Positions 24,019 through 56,759 of a stretch of DNA of 64,000 nucleotides are shown here, one piece after another; position 1 is the first letter of the stretch, and each line of letters opens with the position of its first letter. The stretch comes from Methanobrevibacter sp. (lineage in GTDB: Archaea; Methanobacteriota; Methanobacteria; Methanobacteriales; Methanobacteriaceae), in assembly GCF_030539665.1 (NCBI RefSeq), contig NZ_JAUNXR010000001.1:412767-476766 (forward strand), read 5' to 3'. Below the pieces are notes generated by a model. That model made no database searches, was not told the DNA's origin, and saw only the letters and a list, made by a program, of their open reading frames with translations. Position numbers and translations under genes: made by a program.

Positions 24019-24123
24019 AGATAATGGTCTATTTTATGCTGTATATTTATTAGATATATACAATTTTTAATAAATTCTTAGGCTTGTTTTCGAGTCTTTA
24101 AATTTATTATGGGGGAGATGAAT

Positions 24124-27100: not shown

Positions 27101-27354
27101 TTACCAATGAAACTCCATCAGGTCCTATTGCTAACGAGACCAATGCTACTGGCAATGTTACAAATGGAACCTCATCAAACGTTCCAGGCAATGAAACAGC
27201 AGGTAACCAATCTGGCAATGTTGCTAATAAAACCATGGATACAGGTTTAAACAATGCAAATAGAAATTTAAACAATGTAAAAACTGCCAATCCAATATTG
27301 TTGATGTTGTTGGCTATGGTTTTAATACCACTTAGAAGAAAATTCAAATATTAG
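24124..27354 (+). CDS. Adhesin-like surface protein with beta-helix and Ig-like repeats
   Basis: A 1076-residue secreted protein. The signal peptide has a hydrophobic core and SVSA cleavage near residue 23. From about 40 to 430 it shows a right-handed beta-helix of repeated turns such as NNTATSGGAVYMSG, NNSGLYGGAIINDG and YNVANNKGSGIYNF, like the polymorphic-membrane/pectate-lyase class. Five Ig-like repeats follow, then an Asn/Thr/Gly-rich stalk with many N-x-S/T sequons and a C-terminal anchor NPILLMLLAMVLIPLRRKFK. Such proteins are numerous in Methanobrevibacter and are thought to mediate host or partner contact. GGGGGAG six bases before ATG 24124 decides among three in-frame ATGs. Confidence 0.9.
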   Translation: MKKQIMVILFVLCLLFSVSSVSADDNQTVDDNFAVVNLDADATTFADINSKIASSASNSVIYLNNQSFIGNGQHISIAKSITIDGSSQDNPNSVSVLDAQGNSRVFIILASATNVKVTLKNLVIVNGNISDFGGAVYSRPNSATLTISNIHFENNTATSGGAVYMSGSGSTLNVDNCSFLNNRALNSGAGAIYVYNVNANINNCNFMNNSALRTNETGYSGGAIFSYGILNVDNCLFENNSGLYGGAIINDGRVANIKNSNFTSNVVTRNSGAAIYNYDYSANLKVNNCTFEYNVANNKGSGIYNFLGTAIVENSTFVHNTANSSALLFNDGGKLNVTGSNFTGNIGTNGSVIYNTNATWGYPLPGYAVIKDSNFDYNVPVNGTEIYNGADLKLYSSNLTANYTLIQNYGTLTLEDNNLKSGEYLSIYNDNGTFTNPLKLVVLDNSTVKTNINKTVEITAILVDANNNTVGDRSFKFIVNGTAVNPTLYKNGTYKANVTFSKGGIYPVSATIDSNGDKYLLENGTVKVLSNPNLVISVDNITYGENATVNVSSSDLNSGNVQVIIKDIKTNETIYNSSNSPNTEFKLSDLNAGNYSAFVDFAGNDDYAPASNSTVFEVDKAGSDLVIEADNITFGQDLVCNVTLGNITGSVNITVNNKNYTVDLVNGKGNLTVSGLDAGDYVVSGVFPGNDNYLASNNTANVTVMKVQPSLNVTASNTTYGNSVTVNVSCDVKEGSVKVDVNGTIYDVDLADGKATLVIPNLDAGNYTVVAEFGGNNNYLNVSNSTIFEVAKIAPKLIIEVTNITYGDVAICNVYLNNKTEQNSLLKSFKLLRSNGGSSVEVTIDGKNYNVALNDGVGQIAIPDLNAGNYTALANYEGNRNYLSANNSTIFEVSKAVPKLNIQMDNVTYGNASKGIVEVTGINGDPLNGTANVTIDNKTFEVEINNGKGTVEFDSILNPGSYLANVSFVAPNYENAVNSTTFNVIPVNETGNITNETPSGPIANETNATGNVTNGTSSNVPGNETAGNQSGNVANKTMDTGLNNANRNLNNVKTANPILLMLLAMVLIPLRRKFKY
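25714..27087 (+). repeat. Five tandem Ig-like domain repeats inside the adhesin
   Basis: Five units of about 85-105 codons, each starting P-x-L-x-(I/V)-x-x-x-N-x-T-(Y/F)-G and ending LxAGNYT, GNxNY and NSTxFEV. Unit 4 has an insertion of about 20 residues containing NSLLKSFKLLRSNGG, which the other four lack. Confidence 0.8.
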
Positions 27355-42617: not shown

Positions 42618-43373
42618 TTAAAACTGGCCATTTACAGGCGTTGGAGATAAGTGAACTATTACATCCATGATTTCTGGAGGTATGAATCCTTTCATTAAAA
42701 TTATGAACAGTACAATTATGAATCCAAGATATATGCTCATTCCTTTGGATGTTTTATTGTCAAACGGAAGGTATTTATTTATCTTATCCGGAAAAACAAT
42801 CCAAATGTAGCAGAAAGTGCATATTACAAACACGACTATTCCTATCTGTAGGGAATTTATAAAAAGTAATGAGTCATAACCTACCCAACAGATTATGAGA
42901 TTTGCAAGAAGGTATATTTGTGGAGGATAACCCGCTACCTCTTCATCATTAACATATCTGTTTTTCTCATGAAAAGTATGATATCTAAGTCCGATTCCAA
43001 GCATGGGGAGGCTTGTAAATATTCCTGCAAGAACTGAAAACAATATCGGTTCTCCAAGGACATAATACATTATTATGAACCATCCTATTCCTACGGTGGA
43101 AAATGAAAGTATTAATATGGTGTCTGCTTGATGGATATATCCCAATCCAAAATTTCCACTTTCAAATACTATCAAATCCAATTTCAATCGTTTGTTTATT
43201 TTTTTAATAAAGGAAATCACATATATAGGTCCGCTAAATCCAATTCCCGTAGCAACAAGCATAGGTATGAATGCAGATTTGAATGTATATGCAATTAATA
43301 TGACTAAAAAGGAATATATTATTATCAAAAGTACCTTTCCAATTTTCATTTTTCCTTCAAATGTTAAACTCAT
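42618..43373 (-). CDS. Polytopic membrane protein of unknown function
   Basis: A 251-residue protein with about eight hydrophobic segments in two clusters. A soluble-looking loop GLRYHTFHEKNRYVNDEEVA sits mid-protein, and FCYIWIVFPDKINKYLPFDN with KGFIPPEIMDVI lies near the C-terminus. I do not recognise a family. A decayed paralogue lies at 43751-44201 and shares these last motifs. ATG 43373 follows GGTGAT. The in-frame GTG nine bases upstream is part of the ribosome binding site. Confidence 0.6.
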   Translation of the reverse strand: MSLTFEGKMKIGKVLLIIIYSFLVILIAYTFKSAFIPMLVATGIGFSGPIYVISFIKKINKRLKLDLIVFESGNFGLGYIHQADTILILSFSTVGIGWFIIMYYVLGEPILFSVLAGIFTSLPMLGIGLRYHTFHEKNRYVNDEEVAGYPPQIYLLANLIICWVGYDSLLFINSLQIGIVVFVICTFCYIWIVFPDKINKYLPFDNKTSKGMSIYLGFIIVLFIILMKGFIPPEIMDVIVHLSPTPVNGQF

Positions 43374-43460
43374 AATAATCACCTACTGGGGGGTATTAGT
43401 ACTCAACATGGGTATAATATTTATCTTTTTATTTAAAATAAAATAGGGAGTGTATTTGGT

Positions 43461-43694
43461 TTAGTAGGCCAGATACATCAATCCCAGTCCGAGGGCTAGG
43501 AATACGTAGTTTACTCCGTAGGCCCAGAGGACTCTTTTCCAGTCTTTGTCTTCTTTTTTGTCTTTTTTGTAGAAGTAGTATGTGGCTACTGTTCCGATAA
43601 TCAAAAGTGCAAGGTATGGAATCACTGTTAGGATTCCTCTTGTTATGAACAGTATAATCGGAACGGCAAGCGCCAGTTTTATTTCATTTTTCAT
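43461..43694 (-). CDS. Small membrane protein
   Basis: A 77-residue protein with three predicted helices (LALAVPIILFITRGILTVIP; ALLIIGTVATYYFYK; VLWAYGVNYVFLALGLGLMY) separated by a lysine-rich loop KKDKKEDKDWK. The start at 43694 is set by GAGAGGAGAG; a longer ORF begins 60 nt upstream but has no ribosome binding site. No family is recognised. It is placed between two paralogous membrane-protein genes. Confidence 0.6.
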   Translation of the reverse strand: MKNEIKLALAVPIILFITRGILTVIPYLALLIIGTVATYYFYKKDKKEDKDWKRVLWAYGVNYVFLALGLGLMYLAY

Positions 43695-43750
43695 ATACTC
43701 TCCTCTCTTATTTAAAGATGTATTTTTCAATTTATAATGGACGATTATTT

Positions 43751-44201
43751 TCAATAGTTATGTTGCAAAATATTCAACGTTTCCGGAGGCAACAATCCCT
43801 TTATCGATATTACAAACAGGATTATTATAACTCCTAGATATATTATAAGTCCAGGTAATGTTCTGTTGTCGAATGGAAGTATTTTATTGAATTTGTCTGG
43901 AAATACAATCCAGATATAACAAAATGCTCCAATAATCAATATTAATATTCTATTCAGGATGTATTCTGTATGGATTATTGAGAAGATTGAAACTAATGTT
44001 ATGGCCAACAAGACAATGAAATATGCTCCAGGATCATATCCTCGCATGATTTCATCATTCGGATATTTGCTATCTTCATTGAATGTTTTGTATCGAAGTC
44101 CAATCCCCATGCAAGGAAGAAATACTATCATCCCCATTGCAAATGAATATTAAAAGAAACGGTGCAATCATCAAAATGTATTGTTTGAATGTAATTTTCA
44201 T
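43751..44201 (-). pseudogene. Decayed paralogue of the 42618-43373 membrane protein
   Basis: From 44137 downward an open frame of 128 codons carries GIGLRYKTFNEDSKYPNDE, AFCYIWIVFPDKFNKILPFD and KGLLPPETLNIL, clearly homologous to the second half of the intact neighbour. Upstream, in a different frame, an ATG at 44201 opens MKITFKQYILMIAPFLLIFI, resembling the neighbour's first helix. A frameshift near 44140 and loss of about 100 codons would explain the arrangement. The downstream frame could still be translated from the ATG at 44137, but it has no ribosome binding site. Confidence 0.6.
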
Positions 44202-44341: not shown

Positions 44342-44692
44342 ATGATACCTGGAATGAATCCTAAGCAAATGAAAAAAATGGAAAGACAAATGAAAAAGAT
44401 GGGAATGGACATGAAAGAGCTTAAAAACGTTAAAGAGGTCATTATCCGTCTTGAAGATAAGGAATTAATCATTCCAAATGCTGATGTTAGTATGATGAAC
44501 GTCATGGGACAGGAAACCTATCAGGTAAGTGGAAAAGCTCATGAAGTTGAAATTGAACAGGAACTTGTTATTCCTGAAGAAGATATTGAAATGGTAGCTA
44601 ATCAGGCCAATGTGTCTGCTGAAGAGGCTGAAGAAGCTTTAATTGAATGTGAAGGGGATTTGGCAGAGGCTATTTTGAAATTGTCTCAATAG
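44342..44692 (+). CDS. nac: Nascent polypeptide-associated complex protein
   Basis: A 116-residue ribosome-associated chaperone that forms a homodimer in archaea. IPGMNPKQMKKMERQMKKMG is the basic ribosome-binding N-terminus, ELIIPNADVSMMNVMGQETYQVSG is the NAC beta domain (written here as ELIIPNADVSMMNVMG and QETYQVSG), and the C-terminal 45 residues form a UBA domain (VSAEEAEEALIECEGDLAEA). GAGGAG precedes the ATG; CTTTATATTG upstream is a likely TATA box. It is followed 6 nt later by a phosphoesterase gene. Confidence 0.95.
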   Translation: MIPGMNPKQMKKMERQMKKMGMDMKELKNVKEVIIRLEDKELIIPNADVSMMNVMGQETYQVSGKAHEVEIEQELVIPEEDIEMVANQANVSAEEAEEALIECEGDLAEAILKLSQ

Positions 44693-44698
44693 GATAAT

Positions 44699-45445
44699 AT
44701 GCTTACTATAGCCCATATTTCAGATTTGCATGTAAGTGACTCTGATTTCAATGAAGATGTATTTTTAGAGGCTGTTGATGAAATCAATGCATTGGCTCCT
44801 GACTTCATTATTCTCACAGGCGACCTTACAAATAAGGGGTATTATACCCAATTCGAAAAGGTCAAGCAGTATTTGGAGCTATTTGACGCACCTATATTTG
44901 CTGTTCCTGGAAACCATGATGCTAGAAATCTAGGTGACGAAACATTTGAAGAGCTTATTGGTGAGGCTAGCTGGAAATTGGCTGATAAGGAGAACAAGTT
45001 TGTAGTTATAGGTCTTGACAGCTCCCTTCCAGATTTGAATGAGGGAAGCATTGGAAAGCCTCAAAAGCTATGGTTGGACCATCAGCTTGACGAATGTGTG
45101 ATCAACGAGCTTTTCACCATTGTTGCATTTCACCACCATATCATTCCAATTCCAAAAACCGGAAGGGAAAGAAATGTCCTATTGGATGCTGGAGACATTC
45201 TTAAGACATTGGTTGATCATGAAGTGGACATGGTTTTGGTTGGCCACAAGCACGTTCCCAACGTTTGGAAGATGAACAATACATTGATAATAAATGCAGG
45301 TTCAATCTCTTCCAAAAAGCTTCGTGGAAACGATGTGAATTCATACAACATTTATTATATTGATGAAACAACAATTAACATTGTCCTGAAAAAGGTTGGT
45401 AAAGAACCGATTTCTTTAGGTCAATATCCTAAAAACGTTTATTGA
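44699..45445 (+). CDS. Calcineurin-like metallophosphoesterase
   Basis: A 248-residue phosphoesterase of the class III cyclic-nucleotide phosphodiesterase-like group. Metal-site motifs occur in order: AHISDLHVSD (D-x-H), IILTGDLTNKG (G-D), VPGNHDAR (G-N-H-D), VAFHHHIIP and MVLVGHKHVPN (G-H-x-H). The substrate is unknown; CpdA-like cyclic phosphodiesters are one possibility. It is in an apparent operon with nac. It lies 149 nt before the NYN nuclease/cyclase-like pair, which is worth noting because a phosphodiesterase near a cyclase-like protein could make a signalling module. Confidence 0.85.
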   Translation: MLTIAHISDLHVSDSDFNEDVFLEAVDEINALAPDFIILTGDLTNKGYYTQFEKVKQYLELFDAPIFAVPGNHDARNLGDETFEELIGEASWKLADKENKFVVIGLDSSLPDLNEGSIGKPQKLWLDHQLDECVINELFTIVAFHHHIIPIPKTGRERNVLLDAGDILKTLVDHEVDMVLVGHKHVPNVWKMNNTLIINAGSISSKKLRGNDVNSYNIYYIDETTINIVLKKVGKEPISLGQYPKNVY

Positions 45446-45594
45446 TTTTTCCTATAAAATCATATAAACCTTTTTTATTATTAAATAAAGGCTTTTTATT
45501 GTTTTTTAGCTTTTAAATTACTTTTTTTTAATTAAGTTTAAATATAATGTGGTGTATAAATATTATATCATTATAGTTTGTTTTAGGTGGTTTT

Positions 45595-46620
45595 ATGAAA
45601 GTAGTGATAGATGCTTCTAATGTTGCACATTATAGTAAAAATAATAGTCTTCAACCTCATATGTCCAATCTTTTAGCGGCCGTCAAGGCGTTGGAGGAAA
45701 GTGGCGACGAGTTTGTAATAATTGCAGACGCTTCTCTTCGCCATAAGATTGACGATAAGGAAACCTTTGAAAAGCTATTGGAAAGCGATAATGTTGAAGA
45801 AGTTCCACCTGGAAACGATGCAGACCATTTTATTTTGGACATAGCTACTAAGGAAAATGCTAAAATATTGTCCAACGATAAATTCAGGGATTATGCTGAT
45901 GAATTTAGACATATCAAGTCAATGGTTATTCCGTTTACAATAGAAAATGGCAGATTAACTTTAGGTAAATCCAGCAGCATCAAAAAGGATAAGAACATTT
46001 TACAGCATATTTCCGATGAGATTATCAAGCAGTTGACTTTTAAAAGATGGGAAGTCTATACAGGGAAGGAAGGAATTGAGATTTCTCCTTTAAACATCGC
46101 TAAACAGGCTATTATTCGCATTGACAATGAGGATGATTTCGGAAGCAAGCTTGAAAACATCTTTGCTAAAATCCCTCTCTTCAACAAGATCGTGGATATG
46201 GTTGATGATGTGGAAGTTGCAGCCCCATATGTTATTTTCGTTTTAGTTCATCCTAGGGACTATAAGATGGTTGTCAAAAATGCAGGAAGCATTTCAGTTA
46301 CAATTGCAGACAGGCTGCATCTTGAGAAAAAGCCTTTGATTCTTGTACGTAATGACTTATTTACCAAACCTAAAACTTTCGAGTTAAACATCATGCTGGC
46401 TGATGAGGTTACTGAAAACGCTCCATATAATGTGGTTATTCGCGTAAGCTCTCATGATGAGGTTTTCATTAAGAAAAATTCAAGAAACATAGCCAGTACT
46501 ATCGCTGCTCGTATCGGTTCATTCAAATTCCCATTTGTTTCTGTCAAGCCGGATATGATGTTAACCAGGCCTGGCGAATTTGAAGTGGAATTGGAGAAGG
46601 GAGGAAGCTTCGATGACTAA
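45595..46620 (+). CDS. NYN/Zc3h12a-like ribonuclease with duplicated C-terminal domain
   Basis: The N-terminal 110 residues form a PIN-like NYN nuclease. VVIDASNVAHYSKNN holds the first acid (D6), FVIIADASLRH the second, and VPPGNDADHFILDIA and ILSNDKFRDYADEF the last acids, matching the MCPIP1/Zc3h12a RNase pattern. Residues 130-341 are unlike any domain I know but contain two tandem copies of about 57 residues (212-268 and 278-334), each of the form Y-V-I-x-V-x-x-H-(D) ... S-I-x-x-T-I-A-x-R ... P-x-x-x-V-x-x-D ... F-E-(L/V). AGGTGG precedes the ATG. It overlaps the next gene by 8 nt. The nuclease family is solid; target and partner are inferred. Confidence 0.8.
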   Translation: MKVVIDASNVAHYSKNNSLQPHMSNLLAAVKALEESGDEFVIIADASLRHKIDDKETFEKLLESDNVEEVPPGNDADHFILDIATKENAKILSNDKFRDYADEFRHIKSMVIPFTIENGRLTLGKSSSIKKDKNILQHISDEIIKQLTFKRWEVYTGKEGIEISPLNIAKQAIIRIDNEDDFGSKLENIFAKIPLFNKIVDMVDDVEVAAPYVIFVLVHPRDYKMVVKNAGSISVTIADRLHLEKKPLILVRNDLFTKPKTFELNIMLADEVTENAPYNVVIRVSSHDEVFIKKNSRNIASTIAARIGSFKFPFVSVKPDMMLTRPGEFEVELEKGGSFDD

Positions 46621-47815
46621 TAGCTTAACTAAATTTCTAATTAAGCTATACACTCATCTTAAGCCTATCAGCGTGGGCACTAAATTTTTTCCAACTAATG
46701 AAATTGAAACAGAATATGTGGAGCTTTTTAACTTTACCCAAACAATTTTGCTTGAAATAGAGAAGGCTGAGATTACTTCAGACAGCATTCTGACAAATCT
46801 TAAGAGGGATATAGGTCCTGAAAACATGCCTGAGGATTTCAATTTCTATGAAATCAAGGCGGCGGAAAACAAGATTGAAGAATATGCCCTTGTAAGTAAT
46901 ATAATCATGGGGAGTGACCGTTATTTCTACATAATGCTTCAACGTCCAAGCAGTTTAATAAATGTTTTTGAAAAGATGATTTATTATGAGGGTGGAGAGA
47001 TACTTGAATTGGATTCTACTGAAATAGTTGCAAAGATGCCAAGTAAAAACGATGCAATAAGGCTAGGAATCAAAATGATTGGAATGGGTCTTGAAAAAGG
47101 CATTCCGATAGTCTCAGCAGTTGGAATGACAGGGGCTGCAGCTATTGAAAGGTCACTTGAATACACCGACGAGGTCGGAAACTTCCCGGGAATAGCTTTC
47201 ACAAAACTTGGAGGGGAATATGCATTGGTATTTGAATCCCCATTCAAATTCTCAAAAGGAAAATCAGAGGAATTTGACAATTATCTTTTCATTGATTTGA
47301 TCGATTCAACAAAATTCATCTCCAAATATGGAAGAAACAAGCTTGTTGAACTGATGACTGGAATAAGGCAGTTTATAGAATCAGAATGTGAAGCCGAAAT
47401 TGAAGGATATCGTGAAGGTGGAGATGATTTCATAGCGCGTTTTCCATCAAAGGACTTGGCAATTAGGGCAGGCCTTGATGCGGCATGGTTTGCAGCAAAC
47501 AACAATGCAAAAATAAGGGCAGGCATTGGTAAAAGCAGAAGGGAGGCAGGTCAACGTGCACAGTTGGTTGACAGTTTCAATTCAACCTCACCATTGTCAT
47601 TGGTTATTTTTGAATTGGCAAATGGCCTATACGCTTACAACATACCAACGGAATTCTCAAGAACTTTAATAAACATGTTAGATAACAAGAAAGGAAAATT
47701 AGTGGGAGTTTTCATCTTCGTATTTGTCTTAACATTCCTGTTGTGCATTTTTGGATTTGGATTGCTGAGCTTTGTTGCAGTTGCAATTGCAATCATATAT
47801 GCTTTAGTAATTTAG
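46613..47815 (+). CDS. Membrane-anchored protein with two tandem nucleotide-cyclase-like domains
   Basis: A 400-residue protein. Residues 223-352 resemble a class III cyclase/palm domain: YLFIDLIDSTKFISKYGRN gives the first metal Asp (D228), and YREGGDDFIARFPSKDLAIR gives the GGDD at 269-272. Residues about 96-214 repeat the same plan in degenerate form (EGGEILELDSTEIVAKMPSK, NDAIRLGIKMIG) without the catalytic acids, so one protein may form a pseudo-dimer. Residues 362-399 are two transmembrane helices, leaving the domains in the cytoplasm. GGGAGGAAG precedes ATG 46613. Its start lies inside the NYN nuclease gene, so the two are translationally coupled. The cyclase reading is motif-based inference; I know no named family. 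Confidence 0.6.
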   Translation: MTNSLTKFLIKLYTHLKPISVGTKFFPTNEIETEYVELFNFTQTILLEIEKAEITSDSILTNLKRDIGPENMPEDFNFYEIKAAENKIEEYALVSNIIMGSDRYFYIMLQRPSSLINVFEKMIYYEGGEILELDSTEIVAKMPSKNDAIRLGIKMIGMGLEKGIPIVSAVGMTGAAAIERSLEYTDEVGNFPGIAFTKLGGEYALVFESPFKFSKGKSEEFDNYLFIDLIDSTKFISKYGRNKLVELMTGIRQFIESECEAEIEGYREGGDDFIARFPSKDLAIRAGLDAAWFAANNNAKIRAGIGKSRREAGQRAQLVDSFNSTSPLSLVIFELANGLYAYNIPTEFSRTLINMLDNKKGKLVGVFIFVFVLTFLLCIFGFGLLSFVAVAIAIIYALVI

Positions 47816-47881: not shown

Positions 47882-48124
47882 ATGGCAAACGATGGAAAAT
47901 TAGTTTTTATAATGGTTGTAGCACTTGTTGCATTTGGAATAGGTGCAGTTGCAGGTATTACTATTGGAATGGACAATGTAAACAATACCGATAACGCAAC
48001 AGAAGTGACTCATATTGAAAATGTTACAGTTAACATGACCACTAATTTATCAGAGGAAAATGCCCCTATTTATGATCCTGATATTGATCATGTGGATTTC
48101 AACAACAATGAAACATTTTATTAA
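47882..48124 (+). CDS. Small membrane-anchored extracellular protein
   Basis: An 80-residue protein with one N-terminal helix LVFIMVVALVAFGIGAVAGI followed by a short, acidic outside segment rich in N-x-S/T sites (NNTDNATEV, NMTTNLS, NNNETFY). No domain is recognised. GATTAA is only a weak ribosome binding site. It stands alone between the cyclase-like gene and argJ and ends in a T-rich tract. Confidence 0.6.
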   Translation: MANDGKLVFIMVVALVAFGIGAVAGITIGMDNVNNTDNATEVTHIENVTVNMTTNLSEENAPIYDPDIDHVDFNNNETFY

Positions 48125-48166
48125 TTAATTCTTTTTTTTAAAAAACTTCTTTTTTTAGTGATGGTT

Positions 48167-49399
48167 ATGAAAAGTTTAGATTATATAAGTGATATTTCTG
48201 GAGGTTTATCCTGTATAAAAGACCTTGAAGTGGCTGGAAGTAAGGAAGGTAAATATGGTGTAGCTATTATTGTAAGCAAGGATAGTCAGGCGGCAGGAGT
48301 ATTTACCTCAAACAAGGTTGTGGCAGCTCCAGTCAAATACACTAAAAAGATGCTTAAGAATGGAATTGTATCTGCAATTTTTGTAAACAGTGGAAATGCA
48401 AATTGCTTTACAGGCCAACAGGGAATTGAAGATTGTGAAGAATTGGTAAAACTTGTTTCTAAGGATTTGAAGATACCTGAAAGCGAGATAGCTATTGCAT
48501 CTACCGGTGTAATTGGCCGTGAAATGCCAATGGACATTATCGAAAAGGTGGCTTATGAAACATTGTCAAAACTCGATGATACTCCTGAGTCTTCATTGGA
48601 AGCTGCTAAAGCCATTATGACTACTGACACTGTTCCAAAGGAATTTGCAGTTGAAATTGCTTTGGAGAACAATGAAACAGTAAGGATAGGTGGAATTACA
48701 AAAGGAGTTGGAATGATAGCTCCTAATATGGGAACCATGCTTTGCTTTTTAGTCACTGATGCTGTGATGGATCATAAGTACATTAAAAAGGCATTGAAAA
48801 AGGCTGTTGATGACAGCTTCAACATGATTGTAGTTGACGGCGATGAAAGTACCAATGACACTACATTGCTGTTGGCCAACGGTGCTTCAGGGGTTGAAGT
48901 TGTTGAGGACGGCAAAATCAATGAAAGGTTCCAGAAAGGCCTTGATTATATCTGTAAGGTTTTGGCTAAAAAGCAGGTCCGTGATGGTGAAGGTGCATCA
49001 AAGATTATTGAGGCTACAGTTTCAGGGGCAAAATCTAAAGATGATGCCAGAAGGGCTGCAAAATCCATCATTTCATCTGCACTCGTAAAGTCAGCAGTAT
49101 TTGGAGCGGACCCTAATTGGGGAAGAATTGCTGCTGCTGTGGGATATGCGGGAATTGATATGGATGAGACTGTTATCTCCATTGGCCTTGCAAATGATGA
49201 AGATTCAGTGTTCATGGTAAGGGAAGGCAATATTCTGGCTTTGGATGATACTCCTGAACTTAGGCAAGCTGAAGAGATTATGAAAAGCGAGAGGATTTTC
49301 ATAAATGTTGACTTGCATTTGGGGGATTGTTCTGCAACTGCATGGGGTTGCGACCTCACTTATGACTACGTCAAAATCAATGCAGAGTATACTACCTAA
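48167..49399 (+). CDS. argJ: Bifunctional ornithine acetyltransferase / N-acetylglutamate synthase
   Basis: Recycles the acetyl group from N-acetylornithine to glutamate in arginine synthesis. KYGVAIIVSKDSQAAGVFTS, FVNSGNANCFTGQQGIED and STGVIGREMPMD are in the alpha chain. The self-cleavage threonine is in IAPNMGTMLCFLVTDAVM (ATM/GTM-L form), giving alpha and beta chains. NDTTLLLANGASG and ADPNWGRIAAAVGYAG follow in beta. The start is ATG 48167, with GTGATG upstream acting as ribosome binding site. The 410-residue length is normal. Confidence 0.95.
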   Translation: MKSLDYISDISGGLSCIKDLEVAGSKEGKYGVAIIVSKDSQAAGVFTSNKVVAAPVKYTKKMLKNGIVSAIFVNSGNANCFTGQQGIEDCEELVKLVSKDLKIPESEIAIASTGVIGREMPMDIIEKVAYETLSKLDDTPESSLEAAKAIMTTDTVPKEFAVEIALENNETVRIGGITKGVGMIAPNMGTMLCFLVTDAVMDHKYIKKALKKAVDDSFNMIVVDGDESTNDTTLLLANGASGVEVVEDGKINERFQKGLDYICKVLAKKQVRDGEGASKIIEATVSGAKSKDDARRAAKSIISSALVKSAVFGADPNWGRIAAAVGYAGIDMDETVISIGLANDEDSVFMVREGNILALDDTPELRQAEEIMKSERIFINVDLHLGDCSATAWGCDLTYDYVKINAEYTT

Positions 49400-49493
49400 A
49401 TATTTAAATACTTTTAGTTAAATATAGTTTAATGTTATAGATTATTCTATTTTTAAATTATTTTCATTTAATAAATTATTATGAGGAATTAAG

Positions 49494-49598
49494 ATGGCAA
49501 AAGTCAAAGGAACTAATAAAAGAACAAGACAAAAAAGAAGTTATACTAAACCAGGTAGTAAAAGAGGAAGAGGAGTAAAACAAACCTGGAAAAAATAA
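49494..49598 (+). CDS. 34-residue highly basic small protein
   Basis: ATG 49494 opens MAKVKGTNKRTRQKRSYTKP and ends RGVKQTWKK. About half of the residues are Lys or Arg, with no acidic residue. ATGAGGAATTAAG supplies a GAGGAA ribosome binding site, and a hairpin-type terminator follows immediately after the stop. The composition fits an RNA-binding or ribosome-associated peptide, faintly like the start of eS30, but I cannot assign a family. Its own leader and terminator argue for a real gene rather than chance. Confidence 0.65.
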   Translation: MAKVKGTNKRTRQKRSYTKPGSKRGRGVKQTWKK

Positions 49599-49618
49599 TT
49601 CTCTTATTTTTAGAGAAT
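49598..49618 (+). terminator. Terminator-like hairpin after the basic small protein
   Basis: ATTCTCT (49598-49604) pairs with AGAGAAT (49612-49618) around TTATTTT, followed by a pyrimidine-rich stretch. It overlaps the stop codon by one base. Confidence 0.5.
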
Positions 49619-49997
49619 ATTTACTCTCTTCAACTTCTTTTAATCAATTATTTCTCATTTTAACAATCTAATTTTTTAATATTCATTTTATCTATTTTTA
49701 TAGAACCTGCACATTGCATGGTTTGATAAGGGCTCTTGTGCTATATTCTGATAATTGACATGGATTTTATATTTTGATCTTAAATTTTTATCTGGACCAT
49801 TAAAATTGCTTTCACTTCGAAATATTTATTTGGTTTAAACTTATTTATTTCATCTAAAAACAACAACAATCTTTTTATATGTAATTTCACAAAATCATAT
49901 CTATGCACTTCAACCATTCTTAAATATCAAAGGGAATATACTAATTTACATCTATTATGCGCATCTTAGATATGAGTATAAACATAAGGTGAGTTTA
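49619..49997 (+). promoter_or_regulatory. Promoter and structured leader region of the HEPN cassette
   Basis: This 380-nt region has no ORF I can support. CTTTTTATATG at 49871-49881 resembles a TATA box, placing a start near 49898. There, TCATATCTA (49895-49903) is perfectly complementary to TAGATATGA (49967-49975), which ends 12 nt before the GGTGAG ribosome binding site. The ATGCGCAT palindrome lies inside the loop. The first 200 nt show nothing notable. Confidence 0.4.
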
Positions 49998-50444
49998 GTG
50001 AAATCATACTTTGATTTTAAACAGTTTCTTCCATTGGCAGAAGCCATTTTGGAAGAAAAGAGTCTTAAAATAGACGAAGTAAGTGAAGAATGTATTTATC
50101 GCACAGTAATAAACAGAGTTTATTATGCATGCTACAACCATACAAGAGAATGGTTGGAAGTTAAATACGGAATGAAAACACGAGTATTCGATGAAAGTCT
50201 TGGAAAAATGAGAAATAGAAAAAACAAGAGCTCTCATGTAATTGTTTATGAGGATTTGGAGGATATTTCAAATTTAGTTCCAAAAAATCTTAAAAAAAAT
50301 TTCATAACTTTATCTTCAGATTTGAGAGCAATGTTTTTAAAAAGAATTGAAGCAGATTATAATTTATATAAAACAATAAATTTGCAGGACGTTGAAAAGG
50401 TTATTGAGGATGGCATTAATTTAATGCAATTATTAAATTTTTAG
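49998..50444 (+). CDS. HEPN-like domain protein (putative toxin/RNase component)
   Basis: A 148-residue helical protein resembling the small HEPN superfamily. The helix TVINRVYYACYNHTREWLEV matches the usual S/N-R-x-Y-Y-A-x-x-x-x-R pattern, RKNKSSHVIVYEDL gives an R-x5-H, and the last third DLRAMFLKRIEADYNL matches the L-R-x-x-x-x-x-x-x-A-D-Y element. The start GTG at 49998 is 4 nt after GGTGAG (the GTG at 49989 is within that site). The stop is 12 nt from the next gene. HEPN proteins are often RNases of toxin-antitoxin or defence systems; activity here is inferred. Confidence 0.6.
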   Translation: MKSYFDFKQFLPLAEAILEEKSLKIDEVSEECIYRTVINRVYYACYNHTREWLEVKYGMKTRVFDESLGKMRNRKNKSSHVIVYEDLEDISNLVPKNLKKNFITLSSDLRAMFLKRIEADYNLYKTINLQDVEKVIEDGINLMQLLNF

Positions 50445-50456
50445 TTAGGTGGTTTC

Positions 50457-50843
50457 ATGTCAATTGAAATAATTAACAATATTTTGGTTAATCCTTTGGA
50501 GGATTTTAGTGTTTGTAATCAGTTCAATTACGATTATTTAATTGAACAATGGAAATCTTATTTAAATAGTGGAATAAAACAACTGAAATATTTTTTGGAG
50601 AGTATTCTAGATGAATTTCATGGGAGTTGCGTTGAATACATTCCATATTGGGATAATTCTTTTCTTCCTTTTTTCATTATTAGAATTTCCCGTTCCATTC
50701 CATATAAAATTGCTAAAACATATTGGGACGTCATTTATGATAAGATGGAGGATTATTCAATTAGTCATGGTATTATTCCTTCATTTAACAAGATTAATTT
50801 CACAATTGACTATGAAACCATTCCTAGAAACTTTCTGAGGTAG
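50457..50843 (+). CDS. Unknown partner of the HEPN-like protein
   Basis: A 128-residue protein with no recognised family. It is helical at first (FNYDYLIEQWKSYLNSGIKQ, LKYFLESILDEFHG), then alternates strands and helices (FFIIRISRSIPYKIAKTYWD, KINFTIDYETIPRNFLR). It lacks the GSxxxxxSDxD motif of MNT nucleotidyltransferases, so it is not the usual HEPN/MNT antitoxin. AGGTGG precedes the ATG, and the gap to the HEPN gene is 12 nt, so the two form a cassette. It would be the antitoxin or regulator by position only. Confidence 0.55.
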   Translation: MSIEIINNILVNPLEDFSVCNQFNYDYLIEQWKSYLNSGIKQLKYFLESILDEFHGSCVEYIPYWDNSFLPFFIIRISRSIPYKIAKTYWDVIYDKMEDYSISHGIIPSFNKINFTIDYETIPRNFLR

Positions 50844-50966
50844 ATGTTATATTATGTATTTATCTATTTTTAGAGGATTTTGATGTTTGTAATATCATTT
50901 TCAATAAACGATATTCTTTATTAAACCTTAAAAATTTAATTATTATTTTTTTTAAATAATATCCTT

Positions 50967-52000
50967 ATGAAATTTAAAAAAACCTATTTGATGATTTTTG
51001 CAATCAGAGAAATATAAAATATGGGACTCGAAAAGGTTATGAGTCTGCAATTAAGAAGTTTGAAAGATTCAACGAAAAATCCATTGAATTCTTAGTCACC
51101 GAAGCATTGGATGAAGAAAAAAAGGGAATTCCTTTAAAAAACAGAAAGCTAAAGGAGAGGTTAATAGATTATAGAAGTTTTTTAATATCAAGCGACATGT
51201 CTTCCAATTCTGTCAAAACTTATTTTTCAAAGATTAAAACATTCTACAGGCATTTTGAAGTTGAGATTCCTTCTCTTCCAATAATGAAATATGAGAAATC
51301 CTATGAAAGTAGCTATTTGGATTTGCCTACCAAAAGACATATTGCTCAGGTTGTCGATTCTGTTTCTATTGACTTCAAGGCCCTTGTCCTGTTTATGGTT
51401 TCTTCAGGAACTGCCAAGGCCGAAACGTTATCCTTAACCGTTGCCGATTTTATAGATGCAACTTATGAATATCATAATGGGGGATCAATCGAAAATGTTC
51501 TAGATAGCTTAAGCAAAATGGACAATATCGTTCCTACATTTTATCTAAAAAGAATTAAGACAGATAAATATTATTATACGTTCTGTTCTCCTGAAGCAAC
51601 TGACTATATTGTTAGATATTTGCAGATTAGGCCCAATTTATCCTTAAACGATAAATTATTCGACTTTACAAATGCTGCTTTATTGTCCAAGTTCCAGAAG
51701 GTTAATGATGATATGGGTTGGGGTTTTAAGGGAAGGTATAGGTTTTTCAGATCACATACTCTAAGGAAATTCCATGCATCAAACATTGGCTTGACTGCAG
51801 AATATATTGATGCATTGCAGGGCAGAAGCAAAAATGCAGTTCATGAGGCATATATCAAAACAAATCCTCAAAAATTAAAGTCACTTTATGAAAAGGTAAT
51901 GGACAATGTAATCATTTTTAAAAAAGAAAATTCAAAAGTAATGGAGGAATTTCACATTACCATCAACGTTTTTTTATCGGATAAAGACTATAGAATCTAG
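50967..52000 (+). pseudogene. Tyrosine recombinase (integrase) gene with 5' frameshift
   Basis: The continuous frame from 51107 (first start codon, TTG) encodes a tyrosine recombinase catalytic domain with SHTLRKFHASN (H-x-x-R) and a C-terminal AVHEAYIK holding the likely nucleophile tyrosine. Codons continue open upstream to about 50976 with SAM-like core-binding text (LFDDFCNQRNIKYGTRKGYE) but no start. An ATG at 50967 is out of frame by one base across a run of seven A (50976-50982); eight A would restore MKFKKNLFDDFC. The first catalytic position reads SGTAKAE where R is expected (SGTARAE-like). It is probably inactive, unless slippage at the A run rescues it. Confidence 0.65.
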
Positions 52001-52360
52001 TTAAAATCTTCTGTTTACACTTGAATGTGCTTTATCTCTTTTCTTTTTTAAGTCATTATATTTTTTATTTTTAAATTTTCCGGTTATTGGCATTATTGTA
52101 ACCAGGCTTATTGTGTTTTTATCACAGCTGAAAACAAGCTTTATTTCATCATAGTCTTTTGTTGGAGGTGCTGGATAGTAGACTCCATAGCTTTTGTCTG
52201 CTTCCTGTTCATATCTTATAAAGTCCTCTTCCATTATTACTTGCTTAACGTATTTTAAGCTTATGTTATTGTCACTTAAACGTTGGTTGAAATGGCTCAA
52301 TTCAAAGCACCAGTCGATTTCTTCTACATTTCCAACTATAAATTCATCAAAAATATTCAT
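52001..52360 (-). CDS. Small toxin-like protein (possibly DUF4258/RelE-like fold)
   Basis: A 119-residue protein. FNQRLSDNNISLKYVKQVIM followed by a tyrosine-rich stretch and IKLVFSCDKNTISLVTIMPI has the helix-helix-strand-strand plan of DUF4258/BrnT-like toxins, where the last strand ends in V-T-x-x-P. The C-terminus is basic (KKKRDKAHSSVNRRF). No antitoxin gene adjoins it. It abuts the broken integrase end to end (52000/52001). The assignment is tentative and no Shine-Dalgarno is seen at the ATG. Confidence 0.45.
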   Translation of the reverse strand: MNIFDEFIVGNVEEIDWCFELSHFNQRLSDNNISLKYVKQVIMEEDFIRYEQEADKSYGVYYPAPPTKDYDEIKLVFSCDKNTISLVTIMPITGKFKNKKYNDLKKKRDKAHSSVNRRF

Positions 52361-52449
52361 TGATTTTATTTTATTTTCTTATTTTATTAATCTTACTTTT
52401 TCTTTGCTAGGCAAAGTTATTAATATTTTATAAACATAATATAATACTG

Positions 52450-52962
52450 ATGAAATTCAAAAGAAAAAATATTTTAATTGTTTTGGCAATCCTATTGTTG
52501 GCTATTGGAGTGATGTCTTCAGTTGCCGCATATAACTATAAGGGAACAGGATTTTCCCACAATATTCCAGATTCAAAATATTCGGGGCTTTCCGCTCAAG
52601 ATATTCTAAGCAAATACGAGGATACTGATTGTAAAGTCGAATATTCTGGTTTATGCACCAAAGTAATTGATGGAGACACCATTCGTGTTGATGGAATTGG
52701 AAAAGTTCGTTTTGTTGGTGTAAATACTCCAGAACGTGGTGTGGATGGATATAAGGTTTCTAAAAACTTTGTAGCAAAATTATGCAAAAACAAGGTAGTT
52801 GGTTTGGATATTGATGATTCTAAAAATCAGGATAAATATGGTCGTACATTGGCAGTTGTTATTGTAGACGGTAAAAATCTAAACGAAATGCTTTTAAAAG
52901 AAGGGCTTGCCGAAATAATGTATATTCCACCTAGTGAATTTAATCCTCATAGCTGGGTTTAA
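52450..52962 (+). CDS. Secreted thermonuclease-family (SNase-like) nuclease
   Basis: A 170-residue exported nuclease. The N-terminus KRKNILIVLAILLLAIGVMS is a signal peptide/anchor. The SNase domain covers about residues 65-160: VIDGDTIRVDG with the Ca-ligand Asp, KVRFVGVNTPERG with catalytic Arg and Glu, and DKYGRTLAVVIVDGKNLN with the second Arg. LLKEGLAEIMY closes the barrel. It could degrade extracellular DNA or RNA for nutrient use or exclusion. No Shine-Dalgarno is visible. Monocistronic. Confidence 0.88.
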   Translation: MKFKRKNILIVLAILLLAIGVMSSVAAYNYKGTGFSHNIPDSKYSGLSAQDILSKYEDTDCKVEYSGLCTKVIDGDTIRVDGIGKVRFVGVNTPERGVDGYKVSKNFVAKLCKNKVVGLDIDDSKNQDKYGRTLAVVIVDGKNLNEMLLKEGLAEIMYIPPSEFNPHSWV

Positions 52963-53006
52963 ATTTCACTCTTATTTTTTTTAAAAAAATTAATAGAGAT
53001 TATTTT

Positions 53007-53624
53007 CTAATAACCTCTCTTGTAGTCTTGTAATAGTTTATAGGTTAAGTAATATCTTACAAAATCATCATTTTTATGATAGCTATTGTCAGATTGCACA
53101 TATACAGGATCAGGAGTGTTCAAACTGTTCTGTTCTTGTATATGGTATTGATTCAACGCTTCCCTTAAAATATCATAAAATTGGCCTGATGTAAGATTTG
53201 AGCTTTCACTGCTGCTTATGATGTCTTTCACATCTTCTGAAAACTCATTGCTTTTCCAGGAAATCATATAAACTGATTGCCCAACAGAGAAGAAAACTTT
53301 GGAAACGTTTGCCTTTTCAGCATTGTTATATTCATTGAAATAACGCACGGCATGTCCATTTATATCCATATCTTCCATATATGCATCATCGGAATCTGCA
53401 AATCCATAAACCATTGGAAGTGAGTTGTCAATACAACTTATTTCAAAATTGCGCCAATTTCCAATTGTGTATTTTCCATTTTTCAAATCTCCATTGTTGT
53501 ATTTTGGAGGGATTTTAAAGTCATGTCCTTTGATTTTCACGGTTTTCCAGTCATCAGCATCAATTGCTGAAACTGCAGTTATCATCATCAGACTAAAAAT
53601 TAATACGAATGCTATTTTTTTCAT
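53007..53624 (-). CDS. Secreted protein of unknown function, paralogue B
   Basis: A 205-residue exported protein. The signal peptide IAFVLIFSLMMITAVSA is followed by DWKTVKIKGHDFKIPPKYNN, KYTIGNWRNFEISCID, INGHAVRYFNEYNN and VGQSVYMISWKSNEFSEDV. The same order of motifs occurs in the gene just upstream, so the two arose by tandem duplication. No domain is recognised; the beta-rich GHDFKIPP core is typical of small Methanobrevibacter secreted proteins. AGGTAT precedes the ATG. The gap to the paralogue is one base. Confidence 0.7.
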   Translation of the reverse strand: MKKIAFVLIFSLMMITAVSAIDADDWKTVKIKGHDFKIPPKYNNGDLKNGKYTIGNWRNFEISCIDNSLPMVYGFADSDDAYMEDMDINGHAVRYFNEYNNAEKANVSKVFFSVGQSVYMISWKSNEFSEDVKDIISSSESSNLTSGQFYDILREALNQYHIQEQNSLNTPDPVYVQSDNSYHKNDDFVRYYLTYKLLQDYKRGY

Positions 53625-53625
53625 T

Positions 53626-54225
53626 TTAATACCTGCTATGCTGTCCTATTTTGTAGAATATGTAATAATTCAAGTAATTATGATGATTGCTTTTCGAATA
53701 GGTTTGTTGTGGGACGTAAGTCTTCTCTAGGGATTCCTCGTTTTTATAGTCCTGCAATGCCTGATCCAAAATCTCATAAAAAATTTCCTCACTTATTTGA
53801 GAGGGTTCGCTGCTGGCCACTATTTCATTCACATCTTCGCTCAGATTGCTTGACTGCCATGAAACGTAGTATATGGATTTTCCAACGGGGAAGTAGATTC
53901 TGCTAAGATCAGTTTTTTCATATTTGTTGTAGCTGCAAAAGTAGCGTGCAGGATGGCCATTGATTGTTAAATCATCTCCTACAAGCTGCTGTGATGCAAC
54001 ATAACCGTAATTGCTTGTTATATATGAATCCACACAGGCTATTTCAAAATTATTCCAATTTCCTATGGTGTAACTGTGGGCCTTCAGTTCTCCCCCATCG
54101 TATTTTGGAGGTATTTTAAAGCTATGACCTTCAATCGCCACGGTTTTCCAATTTGACGAATCAACTGCTGAAACGGTTGAAATCATCATAAAACTGATTA
54201 TCAATATTAAAATAAGTTTTTTCAT
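53626..54225 (-). CDS. Secreted protein of unknown function, paralogue A
   Basis: A 199-residue exported protein, paralogous to its downstream neighbour. The signal peptide LILILIISFMMISTVSA is followed by NWKTVAIEGHSFKIPPKYDG, YTIGNWNNFEIACVD, INGHPARYFCSYNKYEKTDL and VGKSIYYVSWQSSNLSEDVN. The C-terminal 45 residues diverge from the paralogue. It has a weak or absent Shine-Dalgarno. The pair forms one minus-strand transcript, terminating before 53000. Confidence 0.7.
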   Translation of the reverse strand: MKKLILILIISFMMISTVSAVDSSNWKTVAIEGHSFKIPPKYDGGELKAHSYTIGNWNNFEIACVDSYITSNYGYVASQQLVGDDLTINGHPARYFCSYNKYEKTDLSRIYFPVGKSIYYVSWQSSNLSEDVNEIVASSEPSQISEEIFYEILDQALQDYKNEESLEKTYVPQQTYSKSNHHNYLNYYIFYKIGQHSRY

Positions 54226-54275
54226 AGTTTATTAATAATTTATAAATAATAAAATAAAAAAGTTTAGGAATTTTT

Positions 54276-55640
54276 TTAGGTTCCTATATCTTCCCTAATT
54301 TTTCTGATGGTATATCTTCCAGCAATATAATTTATTACACTGGCTATTGAACGACCTAATGCAAGACCAATCCAAATACCTAACAGTCCCATTCCCAGGA
54401 ATATTCCGAAGTAATAGGTCAGGATAACTGCAAATATAATTTCCCTTAGGATTGTGAAAAAGAGGCTCAGCACTCCCTTTCCTATTCCCTGATAGAAGAA
54501 ACTTGAAGCCATTCCCGCACCAGTCAAAGGTAGACAAAGGGTAGCTACTCTTAAAAACAACACTATTCCGGGAACAAGGTAAGCTGTTTCGGGTGTGTAT
54601 GCAAACATGACTGATAATGGGTCTGCAAAGATTACAAGAATCAATGTAATTACAGTACCGAAGGCAATTCCGAATTTTGCTCCAAATTTATGGGCTCTTG
54701 AAATGTAATCTCCGTTTCTAGCACCAAATGCACTTCCAACAACGGCCGTTACGGCGGATCCTATTGCTGTAAGTGGCATTATTGCAAACAGGTAAAGCCT
54801 TTGACCTGATGTATAGACTGCAATACCATAATCTCCAGCTATTGTTGAAATAAATGACATGTAAAGTGCCACTGCAATGGACATCATCACCATATCAAGT
54901 GAAGCGGGAATTCCAACTACCAGAATATCCTTAACAATCGCTCCCTTGTATTTAAAGTCTTTGAAATGGATATCTGCATAGGTATCTTTTTTAATCAGAA
55001 TCCAATAGAGGATAACGACTGCAGATATTGCAGAGCTTAGAATTGTTGCATAAGCCGCTCCTGCAACCTTAAAGTTAAGAACATAAATAAAAATCGGGTC
55101 AAAAAGAGCATTAAGGATAACTGAGACTAAAACAGCATACATTGCTCTTTTCATATCTCCCTCTCCTCTCAATATTCCACTAACTCCATTGCTGAATATG
55201 AATGCTATTAAACCTCCAAATAAAGGAGTACTGTATTGCAATGCCTGATTCAAAGCTTCTCCTTTTGCTCCATATAATTGTAAAACAGGTTCCTGAATAG
55301 CTAGCAGGAATATTGTTAGTCCAATTGATGCAACTAAAAATATTAATAATGAGTGCATTGCCGATTCATTTACATTTTCCTTGTCATGGGCGCCTACAAA
55401 TCGGCTGATGCTGCTTGTAGCACCATTTCCAAGTCCAACACTTACACCATTCAAAATCATAAAGATGGGTGTTACAAATCCTACAGCAGCTATTGCTACT
55501 TCTCCAAGTCCAGCTATCCAAATTCCGTCTACAATGTTATAGGACGCTGTTAGAATCATGGAAATCATAATCGGAATGGCCAATTTACGAACGGCCACTT
55601 CAGGATTTCCTCTCATTATCTCAACATTTTTATTCGCCAT
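54276..55640 (-). CDS. MATE family efflux transporter
   Basis: A 454-residue membrane transporter with twelve predicted helices, exporting drugs or metabolites in exchange for Na+ or H+. The N-terminus MRGNPEVAVRKLAIPIMISM and the MatE signatures NIVDGIWIAGLGEVAIAAVG, ILNGVSVGLGNGATSSISRF and SGILRGEGDMKRAM are present, with a matching second-half set (AVVGSAFGARNGDYISRAHK). AGGTGA precedes the ATG. Monocistronic. The substrate is unknown. Confidence 0.92.
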   Translation of the reverse strand: MANKNVEIMRGNPEVAVRKLAIPIMISMILTASYNIVDGIWIAGLGEVAIAAVGFVTPIFMILNGVSVGLGNGATSSISRFVGAHDKENVNESAMHSLLIFLVASIGLTIFLLAIQEPVLQLYGAKGEALNQALQYSTPLFGGLIAFIFSNGVSGILRGEGDMKRAMYAVLVSVILNALFDPIFIYVLNFKVAGAAYATILSSAISAVVILYWILIKKDTYADIHFKDFKYKGAIVKDILVVGIPASLDMVMMSIAVALYMSFISTIAGDYGIAVYTSGQRLYLFAIMPLTAIGSAVTAVVGSAFGARNGDYISRAHKFGAKFGIAFGTVITLILVIFADPLSVMFAYTPETAYLVPGIVLFLRVATLCLPLTGAGMASSFFYQGIGKGVLSLFFTILREIIFAVILTYYFGIFLGMGLLGIWIGLALGRSIASVINYIAGRYTIRKIREDIGT

Positions 55641-55880
55641 TACTATTTCACCTATATATTAATATTATTATTTTTTAGCTTATATTATTATTTCATCATC
55701 AATTTTTTTAAAGGTTCCAATTTTCTTTTTGTTTTGTAAAATGACTATTCTGAATGTTATTTTAACCTTAAACCCTGAAGTTCATATCTCCATCATGTTT
55801 TCATTTCCTATTTAATTCAAAGATTATTTAAATTAAGAAAAACTAAAATAATTACTGATAAAAATTTTTGCTGTGATTTA

Positions 55881-56759
55881 ATGAAAGATGTAAATATTTT
55901 AGTTGAAGCTTTGCCTTATATTAAAAAGTTTCATGACAAAAAGATTTTAATTAAATATGGTGGCCATGCAATGGTGGATGAAGATGCAATGGCTTCCACT
56001 GCTCGCGATACTGTACTTTTAAAATATGTAGGTATGGAACCTATTGTAGTTCACGGAGGAGGTCCTGAAATCTCCAGATCAATGGATAAACTTGGAAAGG
56101 AACCTAAATTCATCAAAGGTTTAAGGGTAACCGATGAAGAGACAATGGAAATTATTAAAATGGTTTTGGTTGGTAAGATAAGTACCAATATCGTTTCTCA
56201 AATTTGTTTCCATGATGGAAAGGGAATTGGAGTTTCTGGTAAGGACAGCAGATTGATTTTTGCAAGTAAAAAACCTGCACATAAAATAACTGACGAGTCC
56301 GGAAACGAAGAGGAAATTGATTTGGGCCTTGTTGGTGAAATTAACTGTGTCAACACTGATTTGCTTGAAATGTTTACAAGCAATAATTATATTCCAGTCA
56401 TCTCTCCTGTAGGAATTGCAGAGGACGGAACAAGCCTTAATCTCAATGCAGATACTGCTGCCGGTGAAATAGCCGGTGCAGTAGATGCAGAAAAATTGAT
56501 TATTTTAACTGATGTTCCAGGAGTTTTAAGAGATCCTAATGATCCAGATAGCTTAATTCAAAGAATTAAAATCGAGGAAGTTCCAAAATTAATAGAAGAA
56601 GGCATTATTACTGGTGGAATGATTCCAAAAATAGAAACCTGTGTTAAAGCTATTGAAGATGGCGTAAAATCATGCCATATTATAGATGGACGTAAAAAAC
56701 ATTCTCTTTTGCTTGAAATATTCACAAAAGACGGTATTGGTACAATGATTTACAAATAG
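55881..56759 (+). CDS. argB: Acetylglutamate kinase
   Basis: Second arginine-pathway enzyme, phosphorylating N-acetylglutamate. [85 protein letters not shown] and [11 protein letters not shown] are the amino-acid-kinase motifs in order. The 292-residue length is normal. GTGAT upstream of the ATG is the ribosome binding site. The gene ends in a terminator hairpin that overlaps its stop codon. Confidence 0.95.

Follow-up and report, generated by a model that had tools for sequence, protein, structure and literature searches.

Related systems and the nuc-palm gene pair

Several described protein families provide a frame of reference for the gene pair reported here, which lies in a stretch of 64,000 nucleotides from Methanobrevibacter sp. 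(assembly GCF_030539665.1, contig NZ_JAUNXR010000001.1, positions 412,767 to 476,766; hereafter the window). Class III nucleotidyl cyclases, such as Rv1900c, Ma1120, OaPAC and the C1/C2 halves of mammalian transmembrane adenylyl cyclases (tmAC), have the cyclase-homology fold with FxDhxxST and GD motifs, and their pseudo-heterodimeric members combine one metal-bearing half with one degenerate half. GTP cyclohydrolase III (PF05165, MJ0145/2qv6) consists of tandem palm-type domains with a GGDN motif and an AGIG-type strand, and RNases of the Regnase/MCPIP1 (Zc3h12a) group contain a NYN/PIN nuclease domain with conserved acidic residues. In Pycsar (PycC and an effector) and in type III CRISPR (Cas10 and an effector), a nucleotide-producing enzyme gates the effector, and these systems serve as a working analogy for the pair.

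The first gene, nuc (45595-46620, plus strand), codes for a Zc3h12a/NYN-type RNase of 341 residues with a duplicated C-terminal domain, and the second, palm (46613-47815, plus strand), for a tandem cyclase-homology protein of 400 residues that is predicted to be membrane-anchored. Palm shares the fold and both motifs with class III cyclases and, as in the pseudo-heterodimers, only one of its halves retains the metal site; unlike them, it joins the two halves in a single chain that has the metal half in second place, and it appears tail-anchored. Its tandem domains, its GGDD motif and an AGIG-type strand recall GTP cyclohydrolase III, from which it differs in the degenerate first half and the membrane anchor. 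Nuc has the nuclease domain of the Regnases, but is fused to a new duplicated domain. The pair departs from Pycsar and type III CRISPR in that the putative enzyme is bound to the membrane beside a soluble nuclease, in that both are encoded by universal core genes and in that no defence model matches them. The reading that we favour, tentatively, is that nuc and palm form a lineage-specific membrane nucleotide-signalling module in which the receiver carries an RNase.

The existence of the pair is already known. Lupo et al. 2025 (PMC11915815), in the portion of that report considered here, list a cluster D made up of OG0001213 ('Zc3h12a-like ribonuclease NYN domain') and OG0001214 ('Nucleotide cyclase'), which is syntenic, specific to pseudomurein-containing archaea and endowed with more than one transmembrane segment, and which they judged to be probably unrelated to wall synthesis. 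By annotation, number of transmembrane segments and taxonomic range, cluster D is the nuc-palm pair. An initial annotation of the locus, made from the sequence alone, had named no described system of this kind; as regards listing this has to be amended, although the pair stands uncharacterised in that portion of the report, which offers no domain dissection or active-site analysis and does not mention the RNase-less partner found in Methanopyrus-like genomes. Neither the anatomy of the pair nor its likely mechanism is treated there.

Domains and predicted active-site motifs of palm

Palm is composed of two cyclase-homology domains (CHD). The intact one, CHD2 (47279-47641, plus strand; residues 223-343; profile match to Rv1900c), contains the FIDLIDST/GGDDFIARF pair pointed out in the initial annotation, namely D228 (47294-47296, plus strand), the predicted first metal-binding Asp, and GGDD at residues 269-272 (47417-47428, plus strand), the predicted second metal site. 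A degenerate copy, CHD1 (46919-47230, plus strand; residues 103-206), lies upstream of it, as had also been claimed, and the two align with 98 % probability in a profile-profile comparison with hhalign (E 1.8e-13). Conservation of D228 and GGDD among orthologues, on which the initial annotation had made its reading depend, is complete: no substitution is seen at D228, S232, G269, G270, D271 or D272 across 87 distinct sequences, and D228/GGDD are unchanged down to 26 % identity. CHD1 has an invariant set of its own in the same sequences (K145, T173, A176, E179, R180, K198 and E202), and its second metal Asp is absent in 87/87, where T, S or another residue is seen instead. The two C-terminal membrane helices that had been proposed correspond to strongly hydrophobic residues ~360-379 and 383-399 (residues 360-399; 47690-47809, plus strand), a predicted transmembrane hairpin.

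The AlphaFold2 (AF2) model of palm has a predicted local distance difference test score (pLDDT) of 85 and a predicted template-modelling score (pTM) of 0.74. Foldseek searches with this model returned class III cyclases as the best matches (AC9, OaPAC and Rv1900c at E 1e-6 to 1e-4, AC9 at 1.1e-6; also Ma1120), with similarity also to GTP cyclohydrolase III (2qv6, E 1.4e-4); a fold unrelated to palm or cyclase domains had been named beforehand as an outcome that would speak against the initial annotation, and the fold found is of the cyclase/palm type. Using a sequence profile that included the Methanopyrus homologues, a search of the PDB detected Rv1900c (E 3.7e-6) followed by Ma1120 (E 0.005-0.011), and the sequences found at E<0.02 were class III cyclases only. 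D228 and D271 align with the FxD and GD metal-Asp motifs of these enzymes. Among the matches of the palm family profile there is also, at E 2.5e-5, a true class III cyclase domain from G228, a distant archaeon; this domain is itself recognised by PF00211 (E 5e-23) and could be aligned with the palm family at the domain level.

For GGDEF diguanylate cyclases (PF00990) there was no Pfam match, GGDD stands in place of GG(D/E)EF, and the protein DosC appeared only at E 0.71. Neither Pfam nor PADLOC gave a Cas10 match, and the genes around the pair code for the nascent polypeptide-associated complex (NAC), a metallophosphoesterase (MPE) and argJ, not for CRISPR components. A possible identity with MK0296, an archaeal 'GGDEF relative' (Anantharaman et al. 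2010, PMC2904730; Galperin 2005, PMC1183210), was considered and is not supported: the palm homologue of genome G181 is located at about 101 kb, and the interval 270-306 kb, assigned to MK0296 on the assumption that gene numbering follows position, contains no member of the family.

The nuc protein and its RNase-less counterparts

The Zc3h12a-type identity proposed for nuc is confirmed by a match to PF11977 over residues 2-137 (E 2.9e-20; 73 bits against a cut-off of 23), a model that is matched by 36/36 family members tested. In the AF2 model of nuc (pLDDT 85) the top PDB matches are ZC3H12C, KHNYN and MCPIP1. This NYN/PIN nuclease domain (45598-46005, plus strand) carries D6, D77 and D95, which are conserved in all NYN-bearing orthologues except one; on profile and acidic residues nuc belongs to the RNase_Zc3h12a/NYN family, and RNase activity is predicted. 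The CCCH zinc finger of the Regnases is absent, the window protein being devoid of any Cys. The two tandem copies of ~57 residues noticed in the initial annotation are likewise real: copy 1 (46222-46392, plus strand; residues 210-266) and copy 2 (46420-46593, plus strand; residues 276-333) align over 57 columns with 97.6 % probability (hhalign, E 3e-12). No hydrophobic segment was found in nuc.

Five genomes of archaeal family f12/g28, of high guanine-plus-cytosine content, are taken by us to be Methanopyrus-like. In these the palm homologue follows a protein that matches the duplicated domain alone (E 1e-70 to 1e-81). Neither the NYN profile in their palm loci nor PF11977 anywhere in the five genomes gave a match. 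The exceptional orthologue is that of G064, a Methanobrevibacter metagenome-assembled genome of 77 % completeness, where nuc has D77N, D95N and D99K, with the reading frame, duplicated domain and palm intact, and where the NYN domain has diverged faster than the remainder (75 % vs 89 % identity); we take these lost acids as supporting evidence only. The gene is found at L003 2675-3724, its start masked by a run of N. Since the RNase domain is absent from the Methanopyrus-like partner and its acids are lost in G064, the conserved unit is the duplicated domain together with palm, and the RNase is an added output module. The Methanopyrus arrangement fits a receiver role of the duplicated domain, but a plain anchoring role as well.

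Gene order, conservation and taxonomic range

Palm has an ATG start preceded by a AGGGAGGAAG Shine-Dalgarno sequence, and the two reading frames share 8 nt, in keeping with the earlier claim that the second frame starts inside the first; the two genes are translationally coupled. Palm was found in 147/151 and nuc in 145/151 Methanobacteriales genomes, each in single copy save for split or weak extra matches, and most of the genomes without one or the other are incomplete assemblies. Adjacency among orthologues, likewise named beforehand as decisive, is found throughout, nuc and palm being same-strand neighbours in every sampled locus, with measured spacing from the 8-nt overlap to 268 nt. The coordinate lists of matches include a few wider gaps (about 2.5 kb in G133, for example), and the genes are split over contigs in G031 and G136. 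In Methanobacteriales the two genes belong, as a pair, to the single-copy core, and their conservation is far beyond chance.

Outside this order, a search of 134 genera with a palm profile and a duplicated-domain profile gave matches only in the Methanopyrus-like genomes and in G151, a Methanothermus-like genome; when the palm profile was extended to 218 archaeal genera the same lineages were recovered, plus the canonical cyclase of G228. The range of the palm family is that of the pseudomurein-walled lineages.

Genomic neighbourhood

Upstream of the pair lie the NAC gene (44342-44692, plus strand), a conserved neighbour by gene order, and a calcineurin-like MPE (44699-45445, plus strand; PF00149, E 3.4e-21). 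The order NAC-MPE-nuc-palm is kept in most sampled loci, from the Methanothermus-like locus L154 to Methanobrevibacter, usually with argJ next. In the window MPE is separated from nuc by 149 nt (45446-45594); this gap is AT-rich with TATA-like runs and may hold a separate promoter for the pair. The phosphoesterase gene of L154 overlaps nuc. The initial annotation was right about the presence of this gene, but its suggestion that the enzyme closes a nucleotide cycle is weakened. Among high-completeness genomes with the pair, no orthologue was found in G021 and the best matches in G023, G027, G037, G111 and G123 were at E 9e-7 or weaker; in G033, G118, G121 and the Methanopyrus-like genomes the gene is unlinked. 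An obligate third member was therefore rejected, and MPE is a conserved yet dispensable neighbour. In G148 (C1:124835-125553) the MPE beside the pair is possibly broken, its match being divided between two frames with open stretches of 231 and 72 residues.

Between palm and argJ (48158-49399) there is a protein of 80 residues with a single transmembrane segment (47882-48124), also found in the Methanobrevibacter loci L086-L090 and L102 and more distant in other genera. ArgJ and argB (55881-56759) are ~6.4 kb apart here and adjacent in L154. The interval 49400-55880 looks like an inserted island; named by eye, it holds a HEPN-like frame, an integrase-like gene (51107-52000), a staphylococcal-nuclease-like gene (52450-52962), two paralogous secreted proteins and a MATE-type transporter. 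Elsewhere in the window, the minus strand encodes tandem paralogous membrane proteins (42618-44137), of which the copy at 43751-44137 is apparently without its N-terminal half, and a surface/adhesin-like repeat protein of 1081 residues with a C-terminal anchor-like segment lies at 24109-27354.

Proposed role and alternative explanations

In the signalling module that we tentatively favour, the C-terminal hairpin would place palm on the cytoplasmic face of the membrane, where CHD2, completed by the degenerate CHD1 in a joint active site, would use a nucleoside triphosphate (NTP) to make a nucleotide signal, most simply a cyclic mononucleotide. In the neighbouring protein the duplicated domain would take up this signal or dock on palm. 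In Methanobacteriales and the Methanothermus-like genome, where the receiver is fused to the Zc3h12a-type RNase, the outcome may be regulated RNA cleavage, and in the Methanopyrus-like genomes some other output. The earlier interpretation, a nucleotide messenger that controls the nuclease, is in this respect partly supported: the anatomy agrees with it, and palm as the maker of the messenger and the duplicated domain as its receiver are roles that we infer.

In favour of this proposal are the universal adjacency of the single-copy pair, the invariant D228 and GGDD, the sequence and fold matches to class III cyclases, the Methanopyrus-like partner made up of the duplicated domain alone, the lost nuclease acids of G064, the absence of a canonical class III cyclase from 22 genomes and the cyclic AMP reported in Methanothermobacter. 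Several observations weigh against it. The class III fold matches are single-domain superpositions with modest TM-scores (0.45-0.58 of the target). No Pfam cyclase model matches the palm family (PF00211, 0/36 members), and alignments to true class III cyclases stop or degrade past the strand preceding the dimerisation arm, which palm apparently lacks, and the transition-state Asn/Arg helix motif (NxxxR), which is visible in neither CHD2 nor CHD1; R180 of CHD1 could be a stand-in. For the duplicated domain, profile and fold searches of the PDB gave no recognisable ligand-binding relatives, and the dispensability of MPE belongs with these points. Given the profile and fold matches, the lack of a matching Pfam cyclase model and the decay of the alignments in the arm and motif region, palm is homologous to class III nucleotidyl cyclases and stands outside the canonical class, and its cyclase activity is putative.

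The main rival explanation, to which we give less weight without regarding it as far-fetched, is a non-catalytic anchor, in which the palm domains are structural or sense nucleotides and the protein tethers the RNase to the membrane and gates it by binding NTP and Mg, much as RNA decay enzymes of bacteria are, in outline, membrane-bound. The hairpin in palm beside a nuc without any hydrophobic segment, the translational coupling and the lack of a visible transition-state motif all suit such an anchor, as does the partner in Methanopyrus-like genomes, which is still encoded beside palm though it has no NYN domain; the invariance of the whole D228 and GGDD signature across the deep Methanopyrus split, on the other hand, exceeds what a scaffold would need. 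Improbable in our estimate is a membrane-associated processing or repair pair, with palm acting on RNA as a nucleotidyltransferase or short polymerase and NYN trimming or cutting the same RNA: relatives of Cas10 and Thg1 share GGDD and the palm fold, this palm group may be ancestrally RNA-acting, as argued by Anantharaman et al. 2010 (PMC2904730), and the partner is an RNase, but mononucleotide cyclases and not polymerases head the sequence and fold matches, a partner without RNase domain exists, and membrane anchoring would be unusual for such an enzyme.

A role in the pseudomurein envelope, for instance as a sensor of wall stress or growth state, we consider about equally improbable. It would explain why the range follows the wall type among the archaeal genera sampled, why cluster D was picked as pseudomurein-lineage-specific and why palm is membrane-anchored; shared ancestry of these orders could account for the distribution, however, the window neighbours (NAC, argJ) are housekeeping and not wall genes, and the authors of cluster D thought involvement in wall synthesis improbable (PMC11915815). 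The likeness to GGDN and AGIG prompted us to consider palm as a paralogue of GTP cyclohydrolase III, a metabolic enzyme of the F420/riboflavin pathway, and the tandem palm architecture and the resemblance to 2qv6 are in line with this; it was rejected and is very unlikely, as palm has no PF05165 match, profile-profile probability is only 4-10 %, canonical GTP cyclohydrolase III is encoded elsewhere in the window's genome and in 141/152 genomes searched, and a membrane anchor and an RNase partner are unfitting. Least credible of all is a role in phage defence through a cyclase and its effector, for which a broad resemblance to Pycsar and type III CRISPR, with a nucleotide enzyme and a nuclease effector, can be cited: in place of a PycC-type cyclase with mobile distribution we find single-copy, universal, vertically kept genes beside NAC and argJ, with no patchiness, no PADLOC model for palm and for nuc only a weak, unrelated match (E 0.026).

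Possible implications for archaeal nucleotide signalling

A 2021 study (PMC8646023) notes that 3',5'-cyclic AMP (cAMP) is reported from Methanothermobacter thermautotrophicus, gives its archaeal source as unknown and holds that most archaea probably make cAMP via an adenylate cyclase of a class yet to be discovered. No PF00211 protein was found in 22 genomes checked, the window's own included. Palm is a worthwhile adenylate cyclase candidate because it is a universal cyclase-like core protein in an order with reported cAMP, and the genomes checked encode no canonical class III cyclase; the reported cAMP makes it a candidate and is no proof that palm is the enzyme. A bolder extension of the signalling proposal, which we regard as unlikely though worth stating, is that palm is the founding member of a separate archaeal class of nucleotidyl cyclases and produces the cAMP, or a different cyclic nucleotide, of Methanothermobacter, read in Methanobacteria by a new duplicated receptor that switches a Regnase-type RNase, a route from membrane to RNA confined to pseudomurein-walled archaea. 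Haloferax and Saccharolobus, for which cAMP is also reported, would need another enzyme if they are without the palm family, as the sampled genera suggest. If palm does signal, it would connect a membrane nucleotide enzyme with RNA turnover in the lineage to which the dominant methanogen of the human gut belongs.
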